A stretch of 61,280 nt of DNA from contig VKHL01000164.1 of NCBI GenBank assembly GCA_015146655.1, positions 1-61,280 on the forward strand. The letters are read 5' to 3'. A model generated the notes under the pieces. The model was not told the DNA's origin. It saw only the letters and a program-made list of their open reading frames with translations, and made no database searches. This document shows, piece by piece, positions 1-47,509 of the stretch. Within the stretch, counting starts at the first letter, position 1, and each line of letters opens with the position of its first letter. Both the position numbers and the translations under genes were made by a program. Source of the stretch: Ochromonas danica. Lineage: Eukaryota > Sar > Chrysophyceae > Chromulinales > Chromulinaceae.

Positions 1-143
1 AGAATCTGAATGTGTTTGCCTGTTTTTGTCGACTGCTGGGAGTAATACATTATTACGGTGCGTGGTTAGCCTGCTTTGGACGCCTGCTGTTGTGGTTGTT
101 CAATGGGGAATAGATATCATAAACATTTGGTTGATAAAAGGAA

Positions 144-1163
144 ATGATGCTTTTAATTCTTGGTCTTTTTCTATCCTTATCATCAACTGCTTTTAGTAGA
201 TTGACTGGTTCTTTTTCTTCTCCTACTTCATCTGAGAATAATATCGTAGTTGTTCGTCAAAATACCGAACGTGTTGGTCATGTCATTAGTCTCAACACAG
301 AAACTGGCAAAATTAAACAAGAATCAAATACTACCATCACTTTTGATTGGCCTTATGTTGAACTAACCACTGATAAAACAAGTCAACGTACTTATATTGT
401 CTCTTTTCCAGATGGTTCTGATGGTCCTATTCTCTATGAATTCGATTCCCAACTTAAACTAACACAAACATGGGATAAGACAGATTATTCTTTCTTTGAT
501 TTACAATATGCTGCCAATCAGAAGACTCTCTATGGAATTAAAGTTGTTTCTACCTATGGACGTGTAATTAGTCGTTTTACTGCCACACCTGGAGCAGATG
601 CTGTCACAGCTGAAGAATTATTTACTTTACCCTATATGTGGTATGTAAATGCTCCCTCTTTTGATCAAGTTAATGAGCGCTACTTTGCCTTGTGTAGTTA
701 TTTCCCTGGTCATCCTGAGACTGTCTCAGATCAGAAGATTATCACTTGTGATACTAAAGTACCCACAGCTAATTGCACTGTTGTTGATATTATCAACACT
801 GCTGGAGCCATTGAGTTTATTGCTTATTCTTCTTTGACAAAGAATTTGTACTTTTCAAGTTTGTTGGATGGAAAGATTTTGGTTGGTGTGTTGGATTACA
901 ATCTTGGAGTTGTTCGTCAGGTCTTGACTTCTTTTCCTGCCATTCGTTTGGGACCTCTGACTGTTGAAGACAAGGCGAATTATTTGTCCTTCTTTGTGAT
1001 AAGTGAGCTCCATGGTTCATGGAAGCTCTATGACTTTGGCTTTAGTGATCCTCATTCCCACTTGATCCGAGTTTTCGATGAAACAGATGCTTTTGCTGGC
1101 TGCGGCCTTGTATTAGATCATGTACTGTTTGATGGATGCCACTATGATGAATATGAAGATTGA
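144..1163 (+). CDS. Secreted beta-rich protein, copy A
   Basis: This is a 339-aa single-exon gene. It begins with Met-Met and a typical signal peptide (residues 1-18, Leu-rich, ending near TAFS), so the product is probably secreted or enters the ER. The rest has no membrane segment. It shows recurring beta-strand blocks (for example YFALCSYF, NLYFSSLLDGKILVG, KLYDFGFSD) that would suit a beta-propeller, but I do not recognise the family and infer no function. Four cysteines lie in the second half and the C-terminus is acidic (HYDEYED). It is almost identical to the gene at 7276, with two amino-acid differences: T versus A in the signal peptide and V versus I near residue 36. The start was chosen because the signal peptide follows it directly. 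Confidence 0.85.
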   Translation: MMLLILGLFLSLSSTAFSRLTGSFSSPTSSENNIVVVRQNTERVGHVISLNTETGKIKQESNTTITFDWPYVELTTDKTSQRTYIVSFPDGSDGPILYEFDSQLKLTQTWDKTDYSFFDLQYAANQKTLYGIKVVSTYGRVISRFTATPGADAVTAEELFTLPYMWYVNAPSFDQVNERYFALCSYFPGHPETVSDQKIITCDTKVPTANCTVVDIINTAGAIEFIAYSSLTKNLYFSSLLDGKILVGVLDYNLGVVRQVLTSFPAIRLGPLTVEDKANYLSFFVISELHGSWKLYDFGFSDPHSHLIRVFDETDAFAGCGLVLDHVLFDGCHYDEYED

Positions 1164-1223
1164 TCAATCGTAGTGATATGATCAATGATTTCTGTTCGGA
1201 TATTTCTAACATTGTTGTGTTTG

Positions 1224-1276
1224 GCTTGCATTTTCATCCTCATATCGTTGTCATATGAGGTGCAAGCGTCTCTTGC
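1224..1276 (+). promoter_or_regulatory. Hairpin pair in 3' region of secreted-protein gene A
   Basis: CCTCATAT (1238-1245) pairs perfectly with ATATGAGG (1253-1260) around a 7-nt loop. The helix continues with GCTTGCA (1224-1230) against TGCAAGC (1261-1267), leaving a 7-nt one-sided bulge. A competing hairpin, GCAAG (1262-1266) with CTTGC (1272-1276), uses the same 3' arm. It lies 60 nt after the stop codon, so it probably sits in the 3' UTR. It could be a processing or stability element. The function is not known. Confidence 0.5.
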
Positions 1277-1617
1277 GTCCCTTTTAGTATGATTTCATCC
1301 TGTAAGGTTCGACCAACTGAATAATTTCCCACCAAGCTATGGTAAATACTGTAATGATTACAGCTTCAAACAGCTAAACTGCTCAACTGCCTTGACACTT
1401 TCCCGCACTACAACATGGACATGCTAGTTTTAGATGGAGAAAAGTGAGTTATAACTCCTTAAAGTCAAGTGGAAGTTGAGCGGGTTGCTTGTCATCGATC
1501 ATCGATCAGCAGAAAACAACAAATCAATTACAATTAGTAGGACTCTCTTGTTTCCACAGACTCGGAAACCTAAGGAAAATAGGGCAATTACTTTCAACAT
1601 CACAAGAAAGAAAGAAG

Positions 1618-2611
1618 ATGAGTGATCTAATGGATGAACGTATTCAACAAGCTGTTGAAGGTTTAATCAAAGCAAACATTAATTTTGTTGCCATAGACTT
1701 TGATGTGAGCCACAGTCTTCTCTATCATCTATGAGTGACTTATGAAGACTGTTATTGTCATATGGTGCTTTATTTTGTTAGCAAACAATGATTTCTCTAC
1801 ATACTTATGGAAGATTTTTGGGCAAGCCCGAAGAACTTGCTCCCTTTCTTCGACCTGTCTTTCTTAAGCTTGTCCCTGCCATCGCGGATAAAAGTGAGAT
1901 TCTTTCCCTTTATATCTCATTGTATCGTAACTCTTGCTCATCTTTGTTGGCGGTGGAATAATCAGATATAGAGCTGGCTATTGTCACTTTCTCTGGACAA
2001 GTTTCCATGATTAGGAAAGTGGTAAGTCATCTAATTTTACGTCCTAAATCATTTGTTTGATCAATAATAAGGCTTGGATGAACAGTTGGAGATCAACTTT
2101 GGCGAACTGTTCAAACGCTTTGTGATTCGTGGGACAGGTAGGGAAGAAGATTGGCGCGTTACTGGTGAGTCCCCTTTTCCGTGCCTGTTCTCTGAGATTC
2201 GCTGGTTAGGAGACTATATTCTTTGCATGGCTAATAGAGAAAGCGCTCAGAAAATTGCCTGACCAATTGAGCCAAGCAGCCAACCTTCAAGTCAGCCCAG
2301 TTGCCAGCCTTCCTCCCTCCCATCTTGCCAACCATCGGGTCAGCCCTCTTCGATCCCCAGTTCGTCACCGTCGAGTCAGCCCAGTACTCAGCCTTCCTCC
2401 CGACCTTCTCCTCAACCCTCTGCTATACCTTCTTCGCAACCTTCCAGCCAGCCCTCTGTCCATCCTTCTAGTCAACCCTCTACCCACCCATCCTCCCGAC
2501 CTTCTCCTCAACCATCGGGGAGACCTTCTTCACAGCCTTCCAGCCTCCCCTCGGTTTATCCTTCGAGTCAGCCCTCTACACAGCCTTCCTCTTTCCCCAC
2601 TGGGGATGTGA
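1618..2611 (+). pseudogene. HAD-like phosphatase, copy A, 3' end replaced by PSQ-repeat DNA
   Basis: Exons by eye: 1618-1704, 1782-1893, 1966-2021, 2072-2164 and from 2238. HAD motif I (DFDQT) is split by intron 1, and motif II lies in AIVTFSGQ. The last exon is cut after RKLP at 2261, so motif III (the Lys in LPGK) and motif IV (LIDDDERN) found in copy B are missing. The reading frame runs on through the adjoining PSQ-repeat DNA in a non-PSQ frame (a Val-Ser-Pro-Leu-rich tail) to a stop at 2609-2611. The intron 3 junction is also two bases out of phase with the paralogue at 10070, as in copy B. Any product should lack phosphatase activity. Confidence 0.75.
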
Positions 2612-4104
2612 GCAGCTTGAGAGAGATGCTTCGATCTTCTCCGAGCTACCATCCAAGAAGCTTGAGTGGGTTGGTGGCTTGGAATGTTTTTGGCACGGTG
2701 TGGTGGTGGGAAGGGAATGAGAAGGTGAAGCAGGATGGTTCGCTAACAGTGTTCAACGTGAGGTCGAAACTGTGTGAGACTTCATCGAATGTGTCTGAGT
2801 TGGAAGTGGAGTTGAACATGACGGCGGTGATCGCGAGCAAGAATGGGTATGTGGGTTTGTTGCGGGATGGTCGTTTCGCAGCTTGGGGATCGCAGGTGTC
2901 GATCTCAGGGTGGGAGCAGCACGTGTCGTGTGGGGTTGAGAGTGTGAATGGAAGTGTGTTGGGTGGCGTGAGCTGGTGGGGTTTGGTGTGGTTGGTGAGC
3001 ACGGATGTGTCGTTCGCAGGTGTGAACAAGACAGGAGGAGTGGTGTCGTTCGGAGCAGCAAGTCATGGTGGCGAGGTGTCATCGTCTTGTGCACGTTATG
3101 TGTCAAGCGGAGTGTTGGGGATCGCAGCTGCGTCGAGCGGCGCTTATGCGGCGTGGAGAAGAGATGGGAAGGTGTGTAGCTGGGACAATGCGTGGGTCGG
3201 AGGAGGCGTCTCTTCGTGGCAGGATGGATCGCTGAAGGGTGTTCGAGGGAAGCATGTGAGGTTGAATGTGAGCGAATCCCTTCATGATGTGAAGATGATC
3301 GTGGCGTCGGAGGCAGCGTTCGCGGCGTTGCGAGGCAATGGGTATGTGGTGAGTTGGGGGAATTGTTACTATGGTGGGTGTGCTCCATCGGATCTTCCTC
3401 GTTTGTCGTGGTTGGTATCGGGTAGTCAAGTGTTTGTGGGGGTGAAGGCGGAAGGTCGAGGTCAGATCGTGGCGTGGGGTAAGTCGGATGTGGGTGGAGT
3501 AATTCCCGAGTCAGTGTCGACCGCGTTGTATGAGGAGGAAGTGGTGTATATCGAGTGCAATCGCGGGTCGGTGTCAGTGTTGACATCTGTAGGTCTCCCC
3601 ACACCCTCACCTCACCTCCTTTCCGCCAAGCAGCAAATGCTCGATCCGAGCTCACCAATCTCACCTCCCCGACTTCCACTCCTTCTCCAGACGTGCTCTT
3701 GAAAGCAGAAGAAACAGAACTGCAGTTCCCTCCATAGCTAGATCGACCCCAACAATACAAACCACAGTGGGTATGGAGGCGAGATGTCTGAGGAGGAGAG
3801 GTTGTGGGCGTCGAGTGGAGTGCAGAAGGTGGTGTCTTCTCAAGGAGCGTTTGCAGCGTTGAGGCAGGATGGCAGTGTGTTATCTTGGGGTCATGGTGGG
3901 TATGGAGGAGACATGTCTTCCGTGTCGTGGTTGCTGGGAGGAGGTGTGGTGGAGTTGCATGGTGGCAAGCTGTCGTTTATGGCGGTGAGGTCGGATGGGT
4001 TGTTGGTGGGGTGGGGAAATAATGGTGTGTTTGTTGATGGCAGTTCAGTGAGTTCACTGTCAGTGTCAAGTGCGTCTTCGATGAAGTGGGATGATTTGAT
4101 GTGA
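2263..4104 (+). pseudogene. PSQ-repeat / RCC1-like repeat protein, 5' truncated and internally inverted
   Basis: The frame is open from the junction at 2262 to 3702 and resumes in the same frame to a stop at 4102-4104. Residues encoded by about 2272-2600 are PSSQPS-type repeats (PSS/SQP/RPS units). There is no ATG upstream of 2626, so the original 5' end, presumably a signal peptide, is gone. The rest is a series of roughly 50-residue units of the form AFAALRxDGxVxSWGxxxYGG, which resemble degenerate RCC1/beta-propeller blades. Between 3593 and 3765 the unit is encoded on the opposite strand, so the forward frame enters nonsense and stops at 3702. Downstream units are normal. It may be a host gene broken by the duplication, or a flipped state of the locus. 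Confidence 0.8.
3593..3765 (-). other. 173-bp inverted segment inside the RCC1-like repeats
   Basis: Read on the minus strand, this segment encodes 57 codons with no stop. They form one full repeat unit (LYCWGRSSYGGNC ... AFAAWRKGGEVRVWGD). Turning it over gives correct phase and correct repeat spacing at both junctions: LTSVGG-LYCWG on the left and VWGD-SGYGGEMS on the right. The ends carry a short imperfect inverted repeat, CTGTAGGT on the left and ACCACAG on the right. The breakpoints are good to a few bases because of this microhomology. It is a single microinversion, or possibly an assembly artefact. Confidence 0.85.
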
Positions 4105-5357
4105 TTTTTTGTTTAGCATTGCAATTTTGTTTAATAAACTGATCGCTGACCTCGTTAGTATTAATTTCTGCTCTGTTTCTGTTTCTCTGTTCCAAAGAGT
4201 TGATTTATTTATACTGTGAAGGAAAAGGTTGTAAATGACAGGAGGTGTAGTTTGAAGCACTATGATCGTCGTTGACTTTATTATCAATATAATTATATAT
4301 ATCACACAATGCCATAATATCATGCCACTAGTACAATATATTTCTTCCTTTCTTCTGACTTGTAGTACCTGCTGTGATTACCTCTATTGTTGAATTGTTT
4401 AATACCCTTTGAGTGCTTCTGTCTTGTTCTACTTCTACTACTTGAGCAACTCGTCATTCGCTATGCTCTTTAATCATGCTGTTCCTATCTAGTAATCCTC
4501 TGATTCACAGGCTTCTTCTTCATTGCAAATGTGATTTCTGTTTTGAGATGAAATCGAAGTGGAAGAAGTTTGTGTTGTTTGATTTCAAGCTTTGTAACCT
4601 CTTGTGTGAAGTAACTATAGTAATAATCAAATCAAATCAAATCAAATCATCAAGACAGACAATGTTCATCTAGCAGATAGAGCACAGGCTAGTATAAGTG
4701 ATATCAGCAATGAGCAAGAAAGAGGAACGTCCTGATTTAGGCAATATGAAACATCAATTTGTCTAACCGTGTTTCAATGTAGTTAACAATTTGATGAGAA
4801 AGCATCGTTACATCAGATCACAAAGCTATTTCAATAACGCCCCCAGAATCTCGCCAGAGGAATCAACATACAGCTATTCCACCTGCTATTCTGTCTCAGG
4901 TTACAGGCATGGTCTTGTTGGTTTTCTTTTCGAAACCCCTATAAACGAAATATCCACCGTTGTATTCCTCAGTGGTAACATTAGCCTATTGTGGGATGGG
5001 AACTGCCCTCACAGCTGTTCTAGTCTCAGCCTGGGCTTGTATTGATCTGTTCTGTCCACTATGAAAGACTGTTATGGCTTGCCTTAGCCTATGCCTGGGT
5101 CATGACAACGGCTTATTTAGAAATGTTATTTTGATTTCTCAATTGAAGAGTGTTAACAGTCATTTGTGGATTCCTTCCTGCCGGTTTAAACAGACCAACA
5201 TCACGATATCTAAAGCTATATAGCGATGATGAAGAGTGATTGAAGATATCAACAAAAGCACGAAGAACTGATATTTCATTTCAAAGCATTACACATGCAT
5301 TGAAAAGTGATATTGGTATATAGTAATATGAAATATGCAAGGTACACCACCTGATAG
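4105..5357. other. Intergenic, no gene recognised
   Basis: This is AT-rich sequence between two converging genes. The only structure I see is a pentanucleotide run of about five units (ATCAA-type) at 4626-4650. Short open frames here lack convincing starts, codon bias or recognisable motifs. Confidence 0.6.
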
Positions 5358-7148: not shown

Positions 7149-7275
7149 AGAATCTGAATGTGTTTGCCTGTTTTTGTCGACTGCTGGGAGTAATACATTA
7201 TTACGGTGCGTGGTTAGCCTGCTTTAGTTGTTTAATGGGGAGTAGATATCATAAACATTTGGTTGAAAAAAGGAA

Positions 7276-8295
7276 ATGATGCTTTTAATTCTTGGTCTTT
7301 TTCTATCCTTATCATCGGCTGCTTTTAGTAGATTGACTGGTTCTTTTTCTTCTCCTACTTCATCTGAGAATAATATCGTAATTGTTCGTCAAAATACCGA
7401 ACGTGTTGGTCATGTCATTAGTCTCAACACAGAAACTGGCAAAATTAAACAAGAATCAAATACTACCATCACTTTTGATTGGCCTTATGTTGAACTAACC
7501 ACTGATAAAACAAGTCAACGTACTTATATTGTCTCTTTTCCAGATGGTTCTGATGGTCCTATTCTCTATGAATTCGATTCCCAACTTAAACTAACACAAA
7601 CATGGGATAAGACAGATTATTCTTTCTTTGATTTACAATATGCTGCCAATCAGAAGACTCTCTATGGAATTAAAGTTGTTTCTACCTATGGACGTGTAAT
7701 TAGTCGTTTTACTGCCACACCTGGAGCAGATGCTGTCACAGCTGAAGAATTATTTACTTTACCCTATATGTGGTATGTAAATGCTCCCTCTTTTGATCAA
7801 GTTAATGAGCGCTACTTTGCCTTGTGTAGTTATTTCCCTGGTCATCCTGAGACTGTCTCAGATCAGAAGATTATCACTTGTGATACTAAAGTACCCACAG
7901 CTAATTGCACTGTTGTTGATATTATCAACACTGCTGGAGCCATTGAGTTTATTGCTTATTCTTCTTTGACAAAGAATTTGTACTTTTCAAGTTTGTTGGA
8001 TGGAAAGATTTTGGTTGGTGTGTTGGATTACAATCTTGGAGTTGTTCGTCAGGTCTTGACTTCTTTTCCTGCCATTCGTTTGGGACCTCTGACTGTTGAA
8101 GACAAGGCGAATTATTTGTCCTTCTTTGTGATAAGTGAGCTCCATGGTTCATGGAAGCTCTATGACTTTGGCTTTAGTGATCCTCATTCCCACTTGATCC
8201 GAGTTTTCGATGAAACAGATGCTTTTGCTGGCTGCGGCCTTGTATTAGATCATGTACTGTTTGATGGATGCCACTATGATGAATATGAAGATTGA
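7276..8295 (+). CDS. Secreted beta-rich protein, copy B
   Basis: This 339-aa protein is almost identical to the one at 144. It has the same signal peptide (SSAAFS here) followed by the same beta-rich, membrane-free body with an acidic C-terminus. The family is not recognised. Purity of the reading frame in both copies fits either function or very recent duplication; the latter alone would explain it. The leader differs from copy A by a 16-bp deletion and a few substitutions within 60 bp of the ATG, so the two copies could differ in expression. Confidence 0.85.
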   Translation: MMLLILGLFLSLSSAAFSRLTGSFSSPTSSENNIVIVRQNTERVGHVISLNTETGKIKQESNTTITFDWPYVELTTDKTSQRTYIVSFPDGSDGPILYEFDSQLKLTQTWDKTDYSFFDLQYAANQKTLYGIKVVSTYGRVISRFTATPGADAVTAEELFTLPYMWYVNAPSFDQVNERYFALCSYFPGHPETVSDQKIITCDTKVPTANCTVVDIINTAGAIEFIAYSSLTKNLYFSSLLDGKILVGVLDYNLGVVRQVLTSFPAIRLGPLTVEDKANYLSFFVISELHGSWKLYDFGFSDPHSHLIRVFDETDAFAGCGLVLDHVLFDGCHYDEYED

Positions 8296-8355
8296 TCAAT
8301 CGTAGTGATATGATCAATGATTTCTGTTCGGATATTTCTAACATTGTTGTGTTTG

Positions 8356-8408
8356 GCTTGCATTTTCATCCTCATATCGTTGTCATATGAGGTGCAAGCG
8401 TCTCTTGC
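8356..8408 (+). promoter_or_regulatory. Hairpin pair in 3' region of secreted-protein gene B
   Basis: This is an exact copy of the structure at 1224-1276: a bulged 7+8 bp stem and a competing 5-bp hairpin that shares its 3' arm. Being part of the duplicated block, it is not independent support for function. Confidence 0.45.
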
Positions 8409-8749
8409 GTCCCTTTTAGTATGATTTCATCCTGTAAGGTTCGACCAACTGAATAATTTCCCACCAAGCTATGGTAAATACTGTAATGATTACAGCTTCA
8501 AACAGCTAAACTGCTCAACTGCCTTGACACTTTCCCGCACTACAACATGGACATGCTAGTTTTAGATGGAGAAAAGTGAGTTATAACTCCTTAAAGTCAA
8601 GTGGAAGTTGAGCGGGTTGCTTGTCATCGATCATCGATCAGCAGAAAACAACAAATCAATTACAATTAGTAGGACTCTCTTGTTTCCACAGACTCGGAAA
8701 CCTAAGGAAAATAGGGCAATTACTTTCAACATCACAAGAAAGAAAGAAG

Positions 8750-9644
8750 ATGAGTGATCTAATGGATGAACGTATTCAACAAGCTGTTGAAGGTTTAATC
8801 AAAGCAAACATTAATTTTGTTGCCATAGACTTTGATGTGAGCCACAGTCTTCTCTATCATCTATGAGTGACTTATGAAGACTGTTATTGTCATATGGTGC
8901 TTTATTTTGTTAGCAAACAATGATTTCTCTACATACTTATGGAAGATTTTTGGGCAAGCCCGAAGAACTTGCTCCCTTTCTTCGACCTGTCTTTCTTAAG
9001 CTTGTCCCTGCCATCGCGGATAAAAGTGAGATTCTTTCCCTTTATATCTCATTGTATCGTAACTCTTGCTCATCTTTGTTGGCGGTGGAATAATCAGATA
9101 TAGAGCTGGCTATTGTCACTTTCTCTGGACAAGTTTCCATGATTAGGAAAGTGGTAAGTCATCTAATTTTACGTCCTAAATCATTTGTTTGATCAATAAT
9201 AAGGCTTGGATGAACAGTTGGAGATCAACTTTGGCGAACTGTTCAAACGCTTTGTGATTCGTGGGACAGGTAGGGAAGAAGATTGGCGCGTTACTGGTGA
9301 GTCCCCTTTTCCGTGCCTGTTCTCTGAGATTCGCTGGTTAGGAGACTATATTCTTTGCATGGCTAATAGAGAAAGCGCTCAGAAAATTGCCTGGTAAACA
9401 AGGACATATGGCGTCAGCAGCAGCAGTGCTGAACCAGCGTGGAGATGTTGTAATCACACCAGCATCAACTTTGCTCATTGATGACGACGAGCGCAATGTA
9501 CTAGAAGCAATAGCGTCAGGCACGCCTGGCATTGTCTTCAATCCCGAGTCTCCTTTAGATTTACTCGATGAGATGGTTGCTTTGGAAACCCTCCTTCCTC
9601 AGCTGGGTCAAGAGCAGGAGGAAGGTATGGTTCGTAGCAATTAA
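8750..9644 (+). CDS. HAD-superfamily phosphatase-like protein, copy B
   Basis: Exons by eye: 8750-8836, 8914-9025, 9098-9153, 9204-9296 and 9370-9644. All four HAD motifs are visible: I, DFDQT (nucleophile Asp, split by intron 1); II, the Thr/Ser in AIVTFSGQ; III, the Lys in LPGKQGHM; IV, LIDDDERN. The family hydrolyses phosphoesters through an Asp-phosphate intermediate. The substrate here is unknown and the protein is small (about 205 aa) with little room for a cap domain. Oddity: with GT-AG splicing at intron 3, exon 3 ends in phase 0 but exon 4 needs two fewer bases to keep the frame shared with the paralogue at 10070. So either a non-canonical splice is used or the gene is frameshifted. 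Confidence 0.65.
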
Positions 9645-14760: not shown

Positions 14761-17361
14761 ATGTCAGTCTATGTTTGGGGTTCAAACACACATCAACAGT
14801 TAATTGGTCAAAGTCAAGCAAGATTCTATTCTCCCGCTTCAGTTGATCCGAATTGTTTTGATGACCAAGTGCCAATTCAAGTTGCCGCAGGTGATCAACA
14901 TACACTTGTCCTTTGTGAATCAGGTGAAGTCTATTCCTTTGGAAATGGAAGAGATGGTCAATTGGGTCAAGGAGAAAGGTTTGAAAGAAACAAGAAAAAT
15001 CTGGTCGTAGGTCTTGATCACGAGACAATAGTTCATATTGCAGCAGGAGCTAGTAGCTCCTTTGCTATCACTTCGACAGGAAGTGTCTATCATTGGGGTC
15101 TTGTTCATATGGAAGAGAACCCTGTTGATCTTCCCCTTCCTAATGATAATATGAATGAGGCTGTTATAACAGGTCAACTTACAGGGTTAGCTCAAGATCA
15201 AGATCTTGTTATTCAGCCAACAACAACTACGACTACCATGACGACCACTGACCCTCCTGCTCCGGCAACAGGATCACGACGCGAACGAGCCCTTGCTGCT
15301 CTTCAATCTGGAAGCAATCGTCAAGGAGGCAATAATGCCGAACAAACACGCCATTTACGAGATATCGTACGGGAGAGTACAGAACGTTGGATGCTCCCCA
15401 CAGAAGAAGCCGAGAGACAATATTATGAAGAACTGCGTGCTATGGGTTATCATCTTGATGAAGTGGAAGAGCTAATCCAGCATCGGGAAGAAGAGCATAC
15501 CGATATGCTCCGAGCAGTTTGCAAGCGTCAAGTTCAGCCTATGCCTATTCGAATTGCTTCTTTGGAGAGAAAGCGTATAGTTGCCATAGCAGCCGGATAT
15601 GCCCATGTGCTTGCTTTGGCTGATACTGGAAGGTTATTTGCCGCAGGATATAATGATCGAGGTCAATTGGGATTGGGCCATCGGATCAACACCAGCGCCT
15701 TCAAGAGCGTGGACTTGCTTAGTAATAAATTTGTTCTGCAAATCGCTTGTGGACAACAACATTCCATGTGTAGAGCTATTGATCGCAGTGAAATTGATGA
15801 GTCGGTTCATGCTGGCAGCTCCTTTGGAGGGGATGTCTATGTTTGGGGCAATGGAATGCTTGGCCAGCTTGGTCTGGGTCGTCGTGGAACCACTAAAGGT
15901 CGAATGGTACCTACCCTCTTACATTCTATCCAGAAGCAGTATCCTCAGGGTGCAATCAGTATTGCAGCTGGTGCCAACTTTTCTGTAGTTGTAGTTTGTA
16001 CGGGCGAAGTCTACTCGTTTGGCCATGCTGAATATAATCAACACGGCACGGGTAATTCATCACACTTGGATTATGTAGATCCATTCCATTTCTTTGAGCC
16101 TCGAAAAGTATGTATTGTTTCTCCTCTTCGTAAAGATGCCCACACTGTTCGAGATGGTAGTCTGCAAGAAACAACTGAGGTTCAGATCTCTTCTGTCACT
16201 TGTGGTGCTGTCTTCACTTTAGCCATCGACAATCTCGGTAATCTCTACTCTTGGGGATGGAATGAAAGCGGTGTGTTGGGTCAAACATTCCAATTCTCTT
16301 CTTCTCCTCAAAGAATTGAAGGAATAGGAAGCCATGCAGCAGGACTCAAGATCATGCAAGTGAGTTGTGGTGGAAAGCATGTAATCGCGTTAGCTGGTGA
16401 TGGCGGTTTGCCATGGGCAACTGCATATCGTCAAATCCTCCAAGAGCCACGTTTTCATGATTGCTATCTAGTGGCTGACAATCATTCTCTTTTGCCTTGT
16501 CATCAAGCATTGTTGGCTGCTCGCAGTTCCTATCTTCGTGGTTTTCTTCGAGCTGCTAAACAAGATCAAACTCATGGAAATCATTCGCTCCATTTGACAT
16601 TCTCGGGTACTTCTTATAGTAATGTCACACTGCGTTGTCTATTGGAATATCTCTATCTTGATCGTTGTCGTGTTCCTGAGCACAAGCTAAAAGAGGTCCT
16701 TTCTCTGGCAAAACAGTTATGTTTGTCGGATTGGGCAAAGCAATTGAAGCCACGTCGATTCAATGACAAAACGACTACTTCCTTATCTTTTGTCAATAAT
16801 ATGTTGAATCTTCTTTCGAGTGACCTTGCTGCAGAGACTGCTGATGTTGTATTTGCTTCTAAGTTATTACCAAATGAAAAGAAACTATACGGTCATCGCT
16901 TTATCTTGTGGAGAATACCTTATTTTGATACTTTCTTTCGAAGCTCTTTTGCGGATTGTAATCGCAAGATTGAGTGTGAAGGCAGAGAGATGCTTGAGAT
17001 TGACATCTCTGGTTTACTATTGGATGGTATTGAAATCAAGATATTCGAACTCTTACTGCAACATGCATATCAAGGTTATTTCGGAAGCGCACATATGACG
17101 GAGAACAATGAGGGTGATATTGATATTAATGATGTGATGTCACTCTTGGTGGCTGCTAATCGTCTTGGATTTTCTTCTCTCGCACAGGGTTATGAAAGAA
17201 AGATTGCTTTATGCCTGACTCAAGCGACAGAGGAAGATGTTGTCCTGGCGATGGAATTTGCTCGCGAATATAACCTTTATCGCTTGGAACGACAATGTTG
17301 TGACTTACACCGTACTCTTCAGCAAAGAGTGGCTGATTCCCTGATACAAAGAAAAGGTTGA
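14761..17361 (+). CDS. RCC1-repeat protein with two C-terminal BTB/POZ domains
   Basis: This is an 866-aa intronless gene. Residues 1-120 hold RCC1 blades (VYVWGSNTHQQL, VYSFGNGRDGQLGQG). An inserted low-complexity then helical region (about 125-260) interrupts the propeller. More blades follow at about 270-550 (YNDRGQLGLGH, VYVWGNGMLGQLGLG, LYSWGWNESGVLGQ). BTB domain 1 starts near residue 563 (HDCYLVADNHSLLPCHQALL) and BTB domain 2 near 690 (ADVVFASKLLPNEKKLYGHRF). The ending helices may be BACK-like. Proteins of this type act as Cul3 adaptors or bind small GTPases and chromatin. Which applies here is not shown. Two BTB domains in one chain suggest an internal dimer. The start directly begins the first blade. 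Confidence 0.92.
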   Translation: MSVYVWGSNTHQQLIGQSQARFYSPASVDPNCFDDQVPIQVAAGDQHTLVLCESGEVYSFGNGRDGQLGQGERFERNKKNLVVGLDHETIVHIAAGASSSFAITSTGSVYHWGLVHMEENPVDLPLPNDNMNEAVITGQLTGLAQDQDLVIQPTTTTTTMTTTDPPAPATGSRRERALAALQSGSNRQGGNNAEQTRHLRDIVRESTERWMLPTEEAERQYYEELRAMGYHLDEVEELIQHREEEHTDMLRAVCKRQVQPMPIRIASLERKRIVAIAAGYAHVLALADTGRLFAAGYNDRGQLGLGHRINTSAFKSVDLLSNKFVLQIACGQQHSMCRAIDRSEIDESVHAGSSFGGDVYVWGNGMLGQLGLGRRGTTKGRMVPTLLHSIQKQYPQGAISIAAGANFSVVVVCTGEVYSFGHAEYNQHGTGNSSHLDYVDPFHFFEPRKVCIVSPLRKDAHTVRDGSLQETTEVQISSVTCGAVFTLAIDNLGNLYSWGWNESGVLGQTFQFSSSPQRIEGIGSHAAGLKIMQVSCGGKHVIALAGDGGLPWATAYRQILQEPRFHDCYLVADNHSLLPCHQALLAARSSYLRGFLRAAKQDQTHGNHSLHLTFSGTSYSNVTLRCLLEYLYLDRCRVPEHKLKEVLSLAKQLCLSDWAKQLKPRRFNDKTTTSLSFVNNMLNLLSSDLAAETADVVFASKLLPNEKKLYGHRFILWRIPYFDTFFRSSFADCNRKIECEGREMLEIDISGLLLDGIEIKIFELLLQHAYQGYFGSAHMTENNEGDIDINDVMSLLVAANRLGFSSLAQGYERKIALCLTQATEEDVVLAMEFAREYNLYRLERQCCDLHRTLQQRVADSLIQRKG

Positions 17362-25126: not shown

Positions 25127-26237
25127 ATGGGACCTAAAAAAGTGAGTGTCAACTACTATTCGGTATTCTTCTATTATAATTATTTATTCTTCTAACTGAT
25201 CATGTTATCTCCCAGCAGGGAAGAAAGAAAGTCGAAATTGCTTCTAAATTAGATGAAGATGAACTTCATGCCATACAAAAAGTGGAAGCTCCGGAGCTGA
25301 AGCTAAAAATGAACTTTGTCAACATCTTGAAGATGAAGCAAAGATCTCAAAAGTCAATTCTCTCAAGATTCTCAATGAATGGCGTAAGATAATGCGTTTA
25401 GCAAAAATGGAAGGGTTAAAAAAAGATATTGAGATTTTATCACGAAATGTTGATGAACGCGATGATGTTGATCGTAAAGATGCTAGTTTACAAACGATTG
25501 ATAGGTGAGACCATCTCATACAAACTCAAGAACACAATTTGATTAACCTACCCCCCACCCTACCATACCATATCCTAATACTGCTACCCTGCCCTGTGTC
25601 CTGTGTCCTATTATACTAATTTGATACTTCATTGTGATATGATTTGTAGAGATTTGGAAGAAGCTGAAGAACAATATCAAATGGCACTTCGTACTCATCG
25701 GACGAATATTGAGAATTTATTGAAACTTCACAATAGTCGATTATATGCCTTGGAGAGAAACTTTCAAAAAGAGTTACAGATATTACAAACAGAGTTTGCA
25801 CAAGATAAAGAAGTCATCTTAGCCAAGTTTACACGTGAGAAAAGAGAACTTGCTGCTATTATTGAGGCTGTTGAACAAGAAGAAGAAGAAGAAGGACGAA
25901 ATAGCGAGGTAAGAATCTCTCAGCATCATCTCTTTTATTCTTCTATGATGAAAAGGAATGCTTCATGGAACGGACTTGACCATCTCTCATCTTCTTGCAC
26001 AGATTGAAGAGTTAGAAGAACATTTTGAGACAAGTCATTGGAATTATCTCTCCCAGACAGCTCAACGTACACATGATTTCCAAAACTCCAACACGTTTAG
26101 ATCAGAAACTATCTACTGATATTAACAAGAAAAAGAAGAAAATTAATAATTTACAAACTACGATACAACATTGGCGTGCTAAAATGCGTAAAGTTAACCG
26201 TGAGACAGAAGAACGTAATCGCTTAACTCAAGAAATA
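25127..26237 (+). pseudogene. DRC2: Dynein regulatory complex subunit 2 (CCDC65) gene, truncated and frame-disrupted
   Basis: Exons: 25127-25141 (MGPKK), 25219-25504, 25650-25908, and 26003 into the next gene. The coiled coil matches DRC2, the ciliary nexin-dynein regulatory complex subunit: ILNEWRKIMRLAKMEGLKKD, RDLEEAEEQYQMALRTHRTN, LYALERNFQKELQILQTEF, then IQHWRAKMRKVNRETEERN. The frame slips by one base near 25290 (between HAIQKVEA and AEAKNEL) and again between about 26030 and 26100. The protein ends some 200 residues short of usual DRC2 length, where IDI-SQS begins. Splice sites are intact. It could be a young pseudogene, or a real gene with assembly indels. The acceptor before exon 2 is a CAGCAG tandem. 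Confidence 0.75.
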
Positions 26238-28469
26238 ATGATGTTACGTGATAATGTCATTGTGGTTGATGATAGTGATAAGATTCTTGGTTTTGCCAGC
26301 AAACAAGATTCACACACTGTCAATCAAAGTCAACCGCGTGGTCGATTACATCGTGCTTTCTCTGTGTTCTTATTTAACAGTTCTGGAAAGCTTTTACTTC
26401 AACAACGTGCTGGTTGTAAGATCACTTTTCCAAATGTTTGGACAAATACCTGTTGTTCTCATCCTCTCTCAGGATGTACACCAAATGAAATTGATAATGA
26501 TGAAGACATTCATAATGGTACTGTACCAGGTGTAAAAAATGCAGCTATTCGTAAACTAAATCGTGATTTAGGTATTCCATTCAATGCAGTACAAGTGGAT
26601 GATTTCAAATATCTGACCAGAGTACATTATTTTGCTTTGGATACGGTAACTCATGGTCCTAACTCACCTTGGTGTGAACATGAAATTGACTTTATCCTTT
26701 TCTTACAAAAGGATGTTGAAATCCAGCCGAATGCTGAAGAAATTGGTGATGTACGCTATGTCGACTTGGCGGAATTAGAAGCAATGATGAATCCTGCTTC
26801 AGGTCTTCTTTGGAGTCCTTGGTTCCATATTATTAAGGAGAAGTTCCTTGTTCACTGGTGGGCTGATTTGCCTACTACCTTACGTACTAATATCTTCACG
26901 AATTTCACTACCATCTACACCTTTGACAATGATAAGAAAGACTTGATTGAAGTGACTGCTAACAATGTCTATACCGTTGGTCAAGCCGATAAAGTGAAAG
27001 ATGAGAATCTTAAACAAGGCGCCTATGGTAAAGTGAAGATTCACAAGCATTCTCTATTGTCTCAATTGAGTCATGTTGATGAAGTGATCGCAGTTATCTA
27101 TTATTTTCTAGAGAAGTTTAAGTCCAAATTAGATATTACCCATGAGGATATTTACTATTGCAATGAAATCCTTGGAAAGGTTTCCGGTTCTTTTGCTGGT
27201 GTGATTCGTGAATTGCCTCAAGATCTCTACTTGGACATTCTTGTCTTCTACCTGGTGTTGCGTGCTTTAGACACTGTGGAAGACGATATGGAAGCCTTCC
27301 GTACTGAAAAGAAACTTAAGGAACAATACCTTTGTGAGTTTTATCGAACTATTTTAGTGACTCAAAGTGATAAATATCGTCTGTGGAGTATTGGTCAAGG
27401 TGATGAGCGCACTTTATTGCAATATTTCAATCATTGTGTGAAGGTTTTCAAATCACTTCCTCCTTCTTCCCGTATTATTATTGCTGATATTACTGAAAGA
27501 ATGGGTGCTGGTATGGCAAGCTTTGTCAATCGTGACTTAGGTCAAGGCACTGTCACCATTGAAGACTATAATCTCTATTGCCATTATGTTGCCGGCTTGG
27601 TCGGAGAAGGTCTCTCTGAACTCTTTTATGCCGGTGGTTATGAGTCAGCTAAAGTGAGGGATGTGTCCAAGACGAAGGCTAACACGATGGGACTCTTCGT
27701 AGAGAAGACAAATATCATTCGCGACTATTTGGAGGATTTCTGTGAAGGTCGTACTTTCTGGCCACAAGAAATCTGGAAGCTTTATGCAGATGATTTGGGT
27801 GATTTCCGTGAGCCAAAGAACAAGAAGAAGGCTCTGCATTGCCTCAACCATATGATTCTGAATGCTCTCGAGTGTATTCCTGAATGCTTAGAGTATATGG
27901 AGCTTCTTCACCACAAGCAAATCTTCCTCTTTTGTGCTATCCCACAAGTCGTGGCCATTGCCACTTTGGCTGAGATCTATAACAACCATAAGGTCTTTAC
28001 TGGCGTGGTTAACATCCGCAAGGGTATGGTAGTCTTACTCATTCAGGACGTTGGCGATTTGAGTAATCTTTACAAATGGATCTATTTGCTAACGCGCGAT
28101 ATTTGTGCTCGTGTTCCCAATGATGATCCTAATGCAGAGAGAACTCGTGAGATCTGTCATAAGGTGTTGCAAATCACTGGTTGGAAGGGTAAGTTTGGCT
28201 ACTATCGTAGCTTTGTGAAGAAAATTGTCAACCTGGGAGCTTCCCTCGTGGCAGTGAACGCCTGCTTAGCCACACCTCTTGCCATTATTGAGAAGAAGGG
28301 TACCTTCGACTGGGTTCTGTTCACTTTTCTTTTCGGCTTGAGTGCTTTACCAATGGTTTCGTTGACTTTTTATTTCGGCATGAGTGTTTTACCAATGGTT
28401 TCTTCCTACTATTTTTTCTCCTTTTTGTTTTCTGCTGTGTTGCGTACTATTGACGGTTGGTGGAACTAG
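26238..28469 (+). CDS. IDISQS: Isopentenyl-diphosphate isomerase / squalene synthase fusion
   Basis: This is 743 aa from the ATG at 26238; the frame is open upstream to 26025 through DRC2-like codons. The IDI (type 1) part, residues about 1-225, has LHRAFSVFLFN, the catalytic Cys in TNTCCSHPL, and a Nudix-like HEIDFILFL. The squalene synthase part, about 270-690, has FYLVLRALDTVEDDMEAF (first Asp-rich motif), YCHYVAGLVGEGLSELF, and MGLFVEKTNIIRDYLEDF (second). One chain therefore turns IPP into DMAPP and condenses farnesyl diphosphate to squalene for sterols. The C-terminus is hydrophobic, with a duplicated block (FGLSALPMVSL, FGMSVLPMVSS), and probably anchors it to the ER. This fusion is established in diatoms and relatives. 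A start inside the DRC2-like frame cannot be excluded. Confidence 0.95.
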   Translation: MMLRDNVIVVDDSDKILGFASKQDSHTVNQSQPRGRLHRAFSVFLFNSSGKLLLQQRAGCKITFPNVWTNTCCSHPLSGCTPNEIDNDEDIHNGTVPGVKNAAIRKLNRDLGIPFNAVQVDDFKYLTRVHYFALDTVTHGPNSPWCEHEIDFILFLQKDVEIQPNAEEIGDVRYVDLAELEAMMNPASGLLWSPWFHIIKEKFLVHWWADLPTTLRTNIFTNFTTIYTFDNDKKDLIEVTANNVYTVGQADKVKDENLKQGAYGKVKIHKHSLLSQLSHVDEVIAVIYYFLEKFKSKLDITHEDIYYCNEILGKVSGSFAGVIRELPQDLYLDILVFYLVLRALDTVEDDMEAFRTEKKLKEQYLCEFYRTILVTQSDKYRLWSIGQGDERTLLQYFNHCVKVFKSLPPSSRIIIADITERMGAGMASFVNRDLGQGTVTIEDYNLYCHYVAGLVGEGLSELFYAGGYESAKVRDVSKTKANTMGLFVEKTNIIRDYLEDFCEGRTFWPQEIWKLYADDLGDFREPKNKKKALHCLNHMILNALECIPECLEYMELLHHKQIFLFCAIPQVVAIATLAEIYNNHKVFTGVVNIRKGMVVLLIQDVGDLSNLYKWIYLLTRDICARVPNDDPNAERTREICHKVLQITGWKGKFGYYRSFVKKIVNLGASLVAVNACLATPLAIIEKKGTFDWVLFTFLFGLSALPMVSLTFYFGMSVLPMVSSYYFFSFLFSAVLRTIDGWWN

Positions 28470-40078: not shown

Positions 40079-43000
40079 CTAGCGCCACGAGGCACTCTTG
40101 AGCTTGCTGCGGAGGTCGATGGTTGTCAGTTCACTCGACATGCTATCACCGCTAAAACTACGGTGAGAATCACTACTACAAGAAATGGAAGAGTTGTTGA
40201 AGCTACTCTGCCCGCATTTTCCATCCACAGCATCACAAAGGCGAGCAAGCAAGTCGTCGCCATCATCTGTGCTGCTGGGCATCCGGACATTTCGACTTGT
40301 GGACATCACTCCGGACACAACATTTGTTCCACATTGCTCCTCAACCGAAGGACTCGGTAAGGAAGAAGGACTCTGACTGTTGCCTAGGATGCAATCAGCA
40401 GGTCTTCTAGAGGAAGACGTCTTTAACGAATTGACCTTGAATCGAACGGCAAATTCTGACACACTGCCGTCAGATTCCGAAGAATAACTTGAACTGCTAA
40501 GAACACTATCACTAGAACTACTTGAATTGACTATTTCACTGTCTTGGTTACTACCATTTGTAATATAGCTCACATCTCGATTGACAAGGAGCTCACTCAT
40601 CTGCTGATCCTCAGATGACAAGGAAGACTTTTCGTCGCCGCTGCTGTCGCTTTCGCTTCTACTAAACGTGGGTTCATTATCAAAGACGACTGAGGTAGAA
40701 ACATACTTCTGGCTGCTACCACGAGATCCGCGACGACCTTCGTTCTCGTCCCAAGAGCTGAAGAGGGAAGAAAGCTGCCAACTGCTGGCACGGCTTCGGA
40801 ATGGAGAGCTGCTTCTGTCTGAGAACAATGTCTGCAGCACTCGACTGGCAACACTCGAGGAAATCGAATACTTCCGACTGCCTCTCTCTCTATTTTCAGC
40901 ATCGCTCGCTCCAAAATGAGATAAGTGCAGACTACTCTCACTGCTAAAACCATCAAAACTGCTGCTACTGCTACTGCTGCTGCTTCCGTCTCCTTTCTCC
41001 GCAATCGGTGGAAGAGAATGAGGCGCAGGCAAAGGATCTCCATCAGCTGGAGGCAAGACATGCTCGCGCTTGACTTTTATTTCTTCACGTTCAGCGTGAA
41101 TTGCCCGGCGATGACGATAGCTTTCCCAAACCAAGAAGATGATCAGCAGAACAACACATCCCAAGCACACTCCGAAGACAACGGGGTGGTCCAACAAAAT
41201 GAGGTAAAAGCTGGTGAAGATGTAGAGGAAGAGAGGCTCCATCATGCGAATAATAATACTCTGCACTTCCACCGGTACACACACTGAGGACGAGAGCAAG
41301 ACGACTTTGATCACTCCCATGGCCATCAGGATCTTCTGAGCAATCGACTTGCCACGAAGATCATCGGAGCTGAGAAGCCAGCGGCTGGGTGCTGTCGCTG
41401 CTTCTGGAGGTTTATCGTGCCATTGGTCGACAGCTGATGCCCATTTTAAACCAGTCTTGCCTGGAAAAGGGCTGCAATAGGCTTTCGCAATCGAACTCTC
41501 CAGGAGTCCTGGGAACTGCTCCGCCAGATGATAGGAGACATGCAGGTGCTGCGCCGTATTGAAACAAGCAAAGCGCGACGAAGCATCTAACTCAACGCTG
41601 TGGGTCTTACGATGCCGTCGACGAGAAGTCTTTTGCTCGGCATTCCCTTCCCGCGTGACAATTCCCTCCTTTTCTTTCAACTCATTCCTCCGTTCTTCCG
41701 CTCCTTCTTCTTCATAGATACTCCGAATCGTGCGTTTCAAGAGCTTCTCAGCACTGTGGACCTCTTTGGCAACCATGCGAGGCATGATGAAATGAAACCA
41801 CAAGCAGTGGATGGTTCCGAAGAGAAAGACATCCAATACGACTTGCAAGGCCCACGCTTGAACATACTTTGACTGCCACTGAAGACCTTTGCTGAAGCCT
41901 TTCAGGATAGCATAATACATCAGAAAGCCATCGATGCAAAGCAGAGCGACGACGACGTTCATCTTCGTCCCCCAGCTCGTTGCATTCACTCGCTCATGCT
42001 CTAACTCAGACTTGATGGCGAAGATGCGGGCAGCAGCACTGTCTCTGCCCAGTAAATCCATCACTAACATCTGCAAAATCTCAAACCCACGCTCTGCTTC
42101 TGAGGACAGCCTCTCCAGCTCCTCTTTCATCTCTGCGGCTGACTTTGCGACCCCTTCCACCTCTTCTTTCACAAGTCGAGAAATGTCGATCACCTTCTTT
42201 TGCTGCTTGCGGCAGAGAAAGAAGTAAGAGCGAGTCTTCCAGATGGTCTTGGACTCCAGAAAGGTGTGACTGCGAGCATCCAGACCCCACAATTGATGAA
42301 ACTTGCTTTGACTCTCGGAATCGTCTTCCAGTAACAAGCTCTGAGCCATGAGATCCTTCCTCAACGCCTCCAGCGAGTCATTGGGACTAGCAGATAAAGG
42401 TAAATCTACCAACTTGCGAATGGCCTCTCGCCGCCTCTGGCGATGAATTACGATTAGATCGACATTATTGTGATCAGCCTCTGTATGATTGTGGCTGCCA
42501 TGCTTTAGCAGACGACTGGAAGCAACTTTCTTTCCATCTTTCGAAAGGTTGAACGACAAAGAGGAAAGCAAAGGAAATGCAGATCGTCGCTTTAAAGCGA
42601 AATCAGAACTTTCTGTCTTGTGAATGCTGGAATCCACAGGTACAATACTAAATAACTCCCCAGACACCTGAACTATGGGGTCAGTCGCTGGGCCAGAAGC
42701 AACAGCAAGCGGTGGCGCAGCATGACCAACAACAGAGGAGTTGCCCACAATGGTGGGGGCCGCAACCATACCCAGATAGTACTCTAATGGCACAGTGTAG
42801 AGACAGGTGGCAAAGGAAGTCATGGCAGAAATATAGATTGTGATTTGAGTAGAGAATGTGGGCGAGGCATAAGAACAACTGCCTGATGAAGCGGACGAGG
42901 CTGTCCATTGACAGTAAGTCTGAGAAGGATCCAAGACACTCTTCCTACTGAGACAATCGCTGCTCGTCATATGGAACTCACAGCTGCCGTCATCATCTGG

Positions 43001-46000
43001 ATAGTTCAGATCATAGAGTACTGCCAGCAGGAAAAGCAAGTAGCTCTGGATGGAGATCATCTTGAGGATATCCACAATGGGATAGTGTCTTTGCTCAAGC
43101 TTCCAGAAGAAGTTGATGTATTCATGATTGTTGTAGAGCTCTCGTAGCATGCCATCCAGCAGAGACTTGTACTCAAAGACGGCGGGAAAGATCGCTTTGA
43201 CTCGTTTCAACACGTCCTCTACCGTCATCTCTTTCCTTTCCTCCTCTTTGCTCCGCCGCTGACTCGACTGCAGTACAGATTTCACCTTGTTCCAAGGATT
43301 TACACGGCTGCCACCTTCTTGACTCGTACCGGGATCAGGCGCTATTTGCAAGGCTTTCTTCTTCTGCTTCTTGGTCATTGCATGAGCTTCCTTCTTATTC
43401 TGCCTCCAGCCTTGGTAGAACATGGAGATCAAAGTGGTGCCCCACAAAGTGGCAAACAACACAATGATAGTGGCAGCTTTGCTGGCCGCCCCTGCATTGT
43501 TCAAGGCAGCTGCAGCTTTGAAGGTGGTCGAGAAATCGGAACCCACAAATTGAAACATCAAGCCAGCTGCCACAGTGCCCGTCCCCGGTTGCAATGGGTT
43601 CTTTCCTAAGGAACATCTGCAAATAATGGTCGCTGACGTTGAATTCAACTCTGTACAAGTTTGCCCTGTCGCCGTGTTGGCGATACTTCGAGCTGACAGG
43701 TCCAGAGCAGCGCAAGTGGCCTTCAGTATTGGACACACTCCTTTATAGGTGCCAGCAATACCTATACATTTATAGTTCTCAACATAGCCTGAATCGGTGC
43801 AAGTGTAGTTCTTCAGCACAAATTCACCACTTCGACATGCAATAGTGAAGTTTATCGGTGTTGAGGTAGAGGAGCCAGCGGGGAAGGTAATATCCACATA
43901 GTTCACTCCTCCACCAACTTGCACTATGACAATGTCTGACTGCAACGACCCTGCCTTGTTGCCACCGCTGCTCGAGTTAGAGGAAGTGTTCCAAGCACTT
44001 TTGTTGACCAGTGCCACAGCCACTTGTACTGAGGCATTGCCTGTACCATTTACATTGGGAAGCAACGAGACAGACGGCACAACTAGTTGGCCCGATGCAA
44101 CCAAACCCTTCTCTGTTTCTGTTAAAGGAATTTGGACTTGGACCGGAGTATTCGATGTCATGTTTACTCGCTCAGATACAACTCGCACCGAGTCGGTGAT
44201 GATCGATACATCCTTTCCATCCGTGAGGGACTGAAGAGCTTTAGAGTAGTTTGCCACGAAGCTCTCTGACATATGGCTCTTGGTTGTTGGGGCGACACTC
44301 GGAGTGACAGTGGGTTGCGAGGTAGGTTGTCTTGTTGGTTGTGACGTTGGTTGTGACGTTGGCTGCGACGACGGTTGATAGCTTGGTTGACTACTTGGCC
44401 TTCCTGTAGGTTGCACTGTTGGCTGGGCAGATGGCTGCCTAGAGGGCTGACCAGAAGGACGACTTGAAGGTCGGGAGGAAGGTTGCAAAGATGGCTGGGA
44501 AGTTGGTTGTCTGCTTGGCTGCGCTGTTGGCAATTGTGTTGGTTGTACAGTAGGCTGTTGTGAAGGCACTCCGCTAGGCTGAGCAGAGGGTACAGCGGAA
44601 GGCTGGCTGGTTGGGACAGCTGTAGGCTGAACAGTGGGCTGTATGGAGGGATGGCTTGAAGGCTGACTTGAGGGTTGAGAAGAAGGTGTTGAGCTTGGCC
44701 GTGCAGTTGGTTGACCAGTTGGCTGGCCCGAAGGAACTCCAGAAGGTTGAGATGTAGGCTGACCTGTTGGGATTCCTGTCGGTTGATCAGATGGTTGACC
44801 AGTTGGTACACCAGAAGGTCGAGTCGAGGGCTGTGCTGTAGGCTGACCTGTTGGGATTCCTGTCGGTTGATCAGATGGTTGACCAGTTGGCACACCAGAA
44901 GGTTGAGTCGAGGGTTGAGAGGTAGGCAACGAAGAAGGTTGGCTGCTGGGCTGAGAGGATGGATTTGCAGATGGCACCGATGTTGGCTGACTCGAAGGCG
45001 CTACTGTTGGTTGGGAAGATGGACTTGCAGAAGGTTGACTGCTCGGTCGGGAAGTTGGTTGGCTACTGGGTTGCGTGCTAGGAATCGTGCTCGGTTGCGC
45101 TGTGGGCGAGCCAGAAGGCTGAGATGATGGTACCGATGTTGGCTGACTCGAAGGCGCTACTGTTGGTTGGGAAGATGGACTTGCAGAAGGTTGACTGCTC
45201 GGTCGGGAAGTTGGTTGGCTACTGGGTTGCGTGCTAGGAATCGTGCTCGGTTGCGCTGTGGGCGAGCCAGAAGGCTGAGATGATGGTACCGATGTTGGCT
45301 GACTCGAAGGCGCTACTGTTGGTTGGGAAGATGGACTTGCAGAAGGTTGACTGCTCGGTCGGGAAGTTGGTTGGCTACTGGGTTGCGTGCTAGGAATCGT
45401 GCTCGGTTGCGCTGTGGGCGAGCCAGAAGGCTGAGATGATGGTACCGATGTTGGCTGACTCGAAGGCGCTACTGTTGGTTGGGAAGATGGACTTGCAGAA
45501 GGTTGACTGCTCGGTCGGGAAGTTGGTTGGCTACTGGGTTGCGTGCTAGGAATCGTGCTCGGTTGCGCTGTGGGCGAGCCAGAAGGCTGAGATGATGGTA
45601 CCGATGTTGGCTGACTCGAAGGCGCTACTGTTGGTTGGGAAGATGGACTTGCAGAAGGTTGACTGCTCGGTCGGGAAGTTGGTTGGCTACTGGGTTGCGT
45701 GCTAGGAATCGTGCTCGGTTGCGCTGTGGGCGAGCCAGAAGGCTGAGATGATGGTACCGATGTTGGCTGACTCGTCGGAACAGAACTTGGAAAAGAGGAA
45801 GGTTGGTTGCTGGGGCGAGAGGTTGGCTGGCTACTTGGTATCACTGAAGGTTGAGCAGATGGCTGCGCAGAGGGTTGATTAGAAGGTTGAGAAGAGGGTT
45901 GACACGATGGCTTGGAAGTTGGTTGTCCAGAAGGTTGTCCAGAGGGACAAGTGGTGGGTTGAGATGACGGCTTCGATGAGGGTTGACCAGATGGTTGCCT

Positions 46001-47227: not shown

Positions 47228-47509
47228 GTCGAATACTCCTTTTGGGACAAACAATTATTTTCTTCCAACACCAAACCAAACCAAACTGATCCAAACCAAA
47301 CTGATCTAAACTGAACCAAACCGGAACCCCAACTGAGGGGAGAGTTGCAAATGAATCTGGAGATCTGGATATCTAGAACAAAGATCAGCAGTGAGAAGAA
47401 CAACTCTGATGATGATAGTGATGATAGTCTATTTTGTCAATAGAAAGAGATAGAGATTGAACTGGGATTCATGCTTCTAAGCGCTATTATAATCATATAG
47501 TCTATCAAA
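47228..47509. promoter_or_regulatory. Shared upstream region of two divergent giant genes
   Basis: This is a 282-bp head-to-head spacer. An ACCAAACTGATC-type direct repeat lies at 47268-47322 (CCAAACCAAACTGATCC, twice, with variants) close to the PSQ gene start. It may be a binding-site cluster. Confidence 0.45.

Follow-up and report, generated by a model that had tools for sequence, protein, structure and literature searches.

A 173-bp RCC1-like repeat unit is present in the same inverted state, with junctions and private substitutions in common, at three loci of one genome and in the forward state at six others. This distribution is probably the result of one exact microinversion followed by ectopic gene conversion between paralogues, by which the broken reading frame would have come to stand in three loci. 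Each component of this history is known; the interesting combination is a microinversion carried between paralogues. The sequence analysed (the window) is the whole 61,280-nucleotide stretch of contig C164, and its own genome (31.2 Mb, 337 contigs) was searched. The features discussed are collected in Table 1.

Table 1. Coordinates of the features in the window.
Feature	Positions	Strand	Description
Left copy of local duplication	2..2261	+	99.1% identical to 7150-9393; RCC1-like piece joined to its right end
PSSQPS/RCC1-like gene copy W	2263..4104	+	Without 5' part, interrupted by the inversion; open from 2263 to the stop at 3700; downstream frame 3784-4104
Block identical in W, A and B	3442..4126	+	685 bp; W-A (C246) identity from 3403, 724 bp (3403-4126)
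Inverted segment	3593..3765	-	173 bp, one RCC1-like repeat unit with its sense on the minus strand; turned over in 6 of the 9 copies in the own genome
Two adjacent private substitutions of inverted copies	3622..3623	+	3/3 inverted, 0/6 forward
Third private substitution of inverted copies	3675	+	3/3 inverted, 0/6 forward
First stop in the inverted reading	3700..3702	+	Ends the new 35-residue tail LPTPSPHLL...QTCS; from the ORF list

The DNA search with the segment found it in nine places. Judged against the flanks, the orientation is inverted in three of them (W, the window copy; A, on C246; B, at C15:119163, also referred to as C15:119k) and forward in the other six (C, on C230; D, on C167; E, at C30:9994; F, at C30:13849; G, at C15:283900; H, at C15:125179, or C15:125k). 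Both junctions are the same to the base in all nine copies, with CTGTAG at the 5' side and AGTGGG at the 3' side. The inverted segment is the reverse complement of the forward one with the flanks left in place, and its identity to the nearest forward copies is 98.3%. The segment ends are GT...AC in seven of the nine copies (the forward copies E and H begin with GC), so the breakpoints can be placed anywhere from 3593/3765 to 3595/3763, i.e. within 2 bp per end. Four forward copies (E, F, G and H) contain 12 additional bases within the segment. The sequence-only reading had assigned this repeat unit to the minus strand and had shown that turning it over restores the frame. Both points are confirmed by the six forward paralogues, which have the same junctions and run stop-free through the segment to ...SSMKW(D/E)DLM with no hand-made flip; the comparison of family members that it had suggested comprises nine copies. 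No other inversion was seen in the family: among the minus-strand matches listed between the nine gene regions, solely the 3593-3765 segment occurs (18 pairs).

An interpretation of the nine copies as haplotypes or alleles was considered and rejected. All of C164 was compared with parts of C246, C230, C167, C30 and C15, and among the matches of at least 600 bp that were listed the stretches have little in common outside the gene, the stalk and short pieces. By this comparison the nine copies look like paralogues rather than alleles.

When aligned in sense, the segments of W, A and B have one and the same 173-base sequence, which departs from that of C and D at three sites. In the new frame these private substitutions replace one residue (R to S) and alter one further codon silently. 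They are common to all inverted copies and absent from the forward ones, which argues for one inversion event; most likely the inversion arose once. Compared with C230 there are three changes within the 173 bp and none in the adjoining 361 bp, which is a little odd for plain drift, and it is possible that the inversion was imported from another, unsampled paralogue.

The forward domain P0001 recovers two distant relatives, on C59 (54% identity, residues 2-476) and on C20 (45%, residues 75-477). Each of them is stop-free across the match, and alignment A2 puts the segment motifs in forward order in both. All eight non-inverted copies that span the segment (six close and two distant) are forward and in reading frame, and for this reason the inverted state is taken as derived and the forward order is read as the ancestral one. 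A minus-strand layout that is ancestral among the paralogues, named by the sequence-only reading as an outcome that would speak against an inversion, is not what the family displays: two paralogues have this layout, against eight forward copies, six of them close and two distant. Three more DNA matches lack the segment, namely C230:1-631, which is cut by the contig end, as well as C15:113064 and C72:5906, which hold the final gene part only. When viral_contigs was scanned with alignment A2, there was no relative among the 22 pattern matches, and one exact 25-mer searched in genome_contigs had 0 matches.

The fuller copies encode an N-terminal hydrophobic leader (a hydrophobic stretch recognized by eye from the sequence), a long PSSQPS stalk (Pfam PT, 383 bits in P0003) and the RCC1-like domain. 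The forward domain P0001 scores 44 bits with PF13540 (cut-off 22) and 38.6 bits with PF25390, which is below the cut-off of 150; the window copy (P0006) scores 14.6 bits with PF13540, under the cut-off of 22, and is not assigned to RCC1 by profile. The AlphaFold model built from eight aligned sequences has a pTM of 0.76 and a mean pLDDT of 71 (34 for one sequence alone) and contains nine three-stranded repeats according to our own count of its strand list. Foldseek matched it to BLIP-II, UVR8, HERC2 and RCC1 with modest TM-scores (at most 0.35 by query and 0.57 by target among the 50 matches listed), and phmmer gave HERC2 and HERC1 chains. By profile and predicted fold the forward copies are RCC1-like domain proteins. 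They resemble the beta-propellers of BLIP-II, UVR8 and HERC2 in repeat motif and in the fold class found by Foldseek; unlike these RCC1-like propellers, the family described here is predicted to be secreted on a long PSSQPS stalk and has nine modelled repeats. RCC1 has seven blades.

In W, A and B the sequence ...SVG is followed by the same 35-residue tail. Of the 503-residue forward domain the inverted copies retain residues 1-334; residues 335-503, its last third, are lost. In the model the break falls inside the sixth of the nine repeats, with loss of the last strand of the sixth and of the last three repeats. Upstream of the break dN/dS is 0.16-0.59 in 34 of the 36 pairs of the nine copies, 1.11 for E-F and 0 for A-C, where three silent changes occur; this fits purifying selection in the gene family. 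Homology of W to its paralogues starts at about 2257-2268; W lacks its 5' part and is joined at about 2262 to the duplicate of 7150-9393. W is very likely a pseudogene because of the 5' truncation, the stop within the inversion and the change of one invariant glycine to D. A and B keep the leader, open frames of 1082 and 1309 residues and all 81 invariant positions upstream, and may be recent pseudogenes or truncated genes. The proposal of the sequence-only reading that a microinversion had killed the gene is supported as to the origin of the segment; it needs amendment in that the inversion is common to three loci and W is additionally truncated at its 5' end and joined to a duplicated neighbour.

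It is conceivable, but unlikely, that the inverted copies have remained functional; they would then encode a shortened secreted protein that ends in the new tail, or else the antisense piece would be removed by splicing as a new intron. The intact leader, open frame and invariant positions of A and B agree with this, and frame-restoring GT-AG pairs exist. However, with 291 such pairs in the examined stretch their presence is to be expected by chance and is uninformative, recent inversions would appear intact regardless, and the window copy has no 5' part. We consider it improbable that the inverted block acts as an alternative C-terminal cassette which conversion spreads and selection maintains; the secreted family would in that case possess a shorter second form, or a new intron, derived from the antisense of its own repeat.

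The inverted copies stand in different 5' backgrounds. Over about 1 kb upstream A is 99.7% identical to forward C and B is 99.1% identical to forward H, and no copy exceeds 96.3% identity to W (about 95% for B). In the tree of columns -1026 to -206 A groups with C and B with H, both with starred support, and three orientation changes are required. A single clade of W, A and B is rejected on the same columns (AU p 1.54e-5, the tested group being known and the variable columns already seen before the test). According to the column tables, B is the same as H between -930 and -206 and the same as C from -316 onwards. Apart from -980, -188 and -152, A is the same as C, and at the latter two of these columns it agrees with W; A and C also differ at four columns of the 5' edge, where the extracted stretches have unequal length.

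The sequence around the inversion conflicts with this grouping. Left of the junction 151 bases are identical for W-B and A-B and 190 for W-A, and right of it 361 of 361 bases are identical in each pair. In the 450 alignment columns past the block, which include many gaps, identity is 302/347 (87.0%) for W-A, 324/372 (87.1%) for W-B and 333/348 (95.7%) for A-B; A and C are identical over the same columns (349/349). Outside the segment W, A, B and C are identical from 3442 to 4126. A resembles forward C on either side of the inversion (99.7% upstream and 99.9% over 1174 bp downstream), so that, between these two at least, the block must have been replaced in either A or C. The forward segment of C is identical to that of D, and it is possible that C230 was re-made forward by a reverse transfer.

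A run test was applied to 148 polymorphic sites in 36 pairs with 2000 shuffles, gap columns being dropped and P given per pair. Runs as long as those observed were obtained in 0 of 2000 shuffles for W-B (30 sites), in 1 of 2000 for W-A (33 sites) and in 2 of 2000 for A-B (30 sites). The values for A-D, B-H, E-F, C-D and A-C are also at most 0.003, and the 5' runs of B-H (-930 to -297) and A-C (-975 to -191) are both significant. The runs of W-C (0.0895) and B-C (0.0545) fall short of significance, because C interrupts them at the private sites. As many pairs have significant runs, exchange is common in this gene family. The segments are also identical within E/H and within F/G despite a 5' difference of 3.7-3.9%, which is a further sign of exchange in the family. 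The bounded block of identity points to exchange between loci rather than to whole-gene duplication alone. Judged from the alignments, the pattern by which ectopic gene conversion is recognized, a bounded identity block together with conflicting trees, is present here.

We propose that one exact microinversion of 169-173 bp occurred in one member of this predicted secreted PSSQPS-stalk/RCC1-like family; it may have arisen by end joining of two breaks or by replication template switching. The block around it would then have been exchanged among the paralogues by ectopic gene conversion, for instance when a break was repaired by copying an inverted donor; the 3' ends of the family would often be homogenised in this manner. 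The outcome would be an inverted block in three loci that differ in 5' background and in downstream sequence. Since inversions are rare and each is almost unique, this one can serve as a label for gene conversion: a locus with the inverted block and the three markers implies that sequence passed between loci or that loci were duplicated. If the conversion reading is true, a frame-breaking inversion can be passed from one paralogue to another by concerted evolution, which would thus spread damage besides erasing differences. In the titles and abstract openings searched we found no report of an inversion spread by conversion among paralogues; such a report may still exist.

Gene duplication with later conversion of adjacent parts could leave similar traces. 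The inversion could have spread by whole-gene duplication, with the 5' parts later converted by forward neighbours so that the history was masked. The significant 5' runs of B-H and A-C agree with this, as they indicate that 5' parts were exchanged too. It is nevertheless an unlikely history, for right past the identical block the downstream sequences differ (87% and 95.7% identity), and the resemblance of C246 to C230 extends to both sides of the inversion. A wrongly turned consensus in three repeats would be favoured by the repetitive nature of the identical block; it is quite improbable, as the arrangement is the same to the base on three differently flanked contigs and no forward copy in the assembly could have supplied the private substitutions. 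An assembly error at one locus, which the sequence-only reading had asked to be excluded, is likewise unlikely with the inversion on three contigs that have different flanks.

The other possibility raised from the window, a switchable segment, would imply that a recombinase flips the 173 bp and so toggles the last third of the RCC1-like domain. The presence of two orientations in one genome, the exact junctions and the scatter of orientation over the 5' tree are features that such a switch would have. The three markers, however, are linked to orientation in nine of nine copies: repeated flipping should produce marked forward copies or unmarked inverted ones, and neither kind is found among the nine. 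The imperfect inverted repeats reported to flank the segment do not stand out either, since the inverted-repeat score of the junctions, computed for six of the nine copies, is at chance level against randomly chosen positions equally far apart (P 0.37-0.62), and the inverted match at the segment ends is 2 bp long (GT/AC). Two family searches yielded no plausible recombinase. PF00589 had 0 matches in the genome, and PF00239 had one, at C309:10012-10413 (E 7e-45), on a 13.6-kb contig; genes split by introns could escape both searches. The kilobase around the latter match has a GC content of 58% vs 34-46% in 10-kb blocks of the first 60 kb of the window. The frame presumably encodes a bacterial serine resolvase, and the contig is probably a bacterial contaminant of the assembly. 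Bacterial phase-variable invertible segments likewise occur in two orientations and disrupt a surface-type gene in one of them; the present case differs in that its inverted repeats are not significant, the searches gave no plausible recombinase and markers are not exchanged between the orientations. A switch is thus very improbable. Three independent inversions at a fragile site, to which the three 5' backgrounds and the homoplastic microinversions of birds, with hotspots without stem-loops that make recurrence possible in principle (PMC3123225, in the excerpt cited), might lend some credit, are hardly credible because the private changes would be needed thrice, or else a marked forward donor, which is absent among the six forward copies.

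The inversion itself can be compared with known microinversions, as described in the excerpts cited here. These comprise 59 definite human-chimpanzee microinversions of 17-33 nt, all flanked by inverted repeats of 3-75 nt (PMC8755829), and 2,377 ultramicro inversions of 5-125 bp, 65 of them in exons (PMC3227671). In both sets, as in the window, a short segment appears as its own reverse complement with the flanks in place. The present inversion is longer than these (169-173 bp) and, in contrast to those excerpts, is common to three paralogues; flanking inverted repeats are a trait of the set of PMC8755829, not a definitional one, and here they amount to 2 bp at most. The excerpt of PMC8604942 deals with template-switch spacer inversions in yeast genes, which depend on inverted-repeat arms; they too lie within coding DNA, whereas the arms here are not above chance. 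Ectopic gene conversion and concerted evolution in Drosophila (PMC3924832, excerpt) share with our case the bounded identity blocks and conflicting trees of dispersed paralogues, the difference being that the block here bears a frame-breaking inversion. The mentions of RCC1 in the cited part of PMC11685980 are mostly strain names.

Several observations concern the surrounding sequence. The duplication 2-2261/7150-9393 holds a 339-residue open frame and the 5' part of an intron-bearing, putatively HAD-like gene. The contig begins at most 2 bases from the start of the duplicate, a sign that the assembly may have cut or collapsed a longer tandem array. At C15:113061-113267 and C72:5903-6073 the RCC1-like gene is represented by its final 60-70 codons alone, which lie inside very long stop-free frames (4616 and 2025 aa, respectively); judging by these matches, the 3' end of the family seems to be common to other genes. 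On the minus strand at 40079-47254 there is a 2391-residue frame with a very long PSSQPS/PTSQPS stalk of near-identical tandem units, which is like the stalks of the RCC1-like family. The 866-residue frame at 14761-17361, with putative RCC1 repeats and BTB domains, is 23% identical to P0001 and is apparently an ordinary intracellular RCC1 relative. One frame at 26025-28469 presumably combines an isopentenyl-diphosphate isomerase with a squalene/phytoene-synthase-like part. The genome contains 47 matches to PF00504, the light-harvesting chlorophyll-binding family, and is accordingly taken to be that of a photosynthetic alga.
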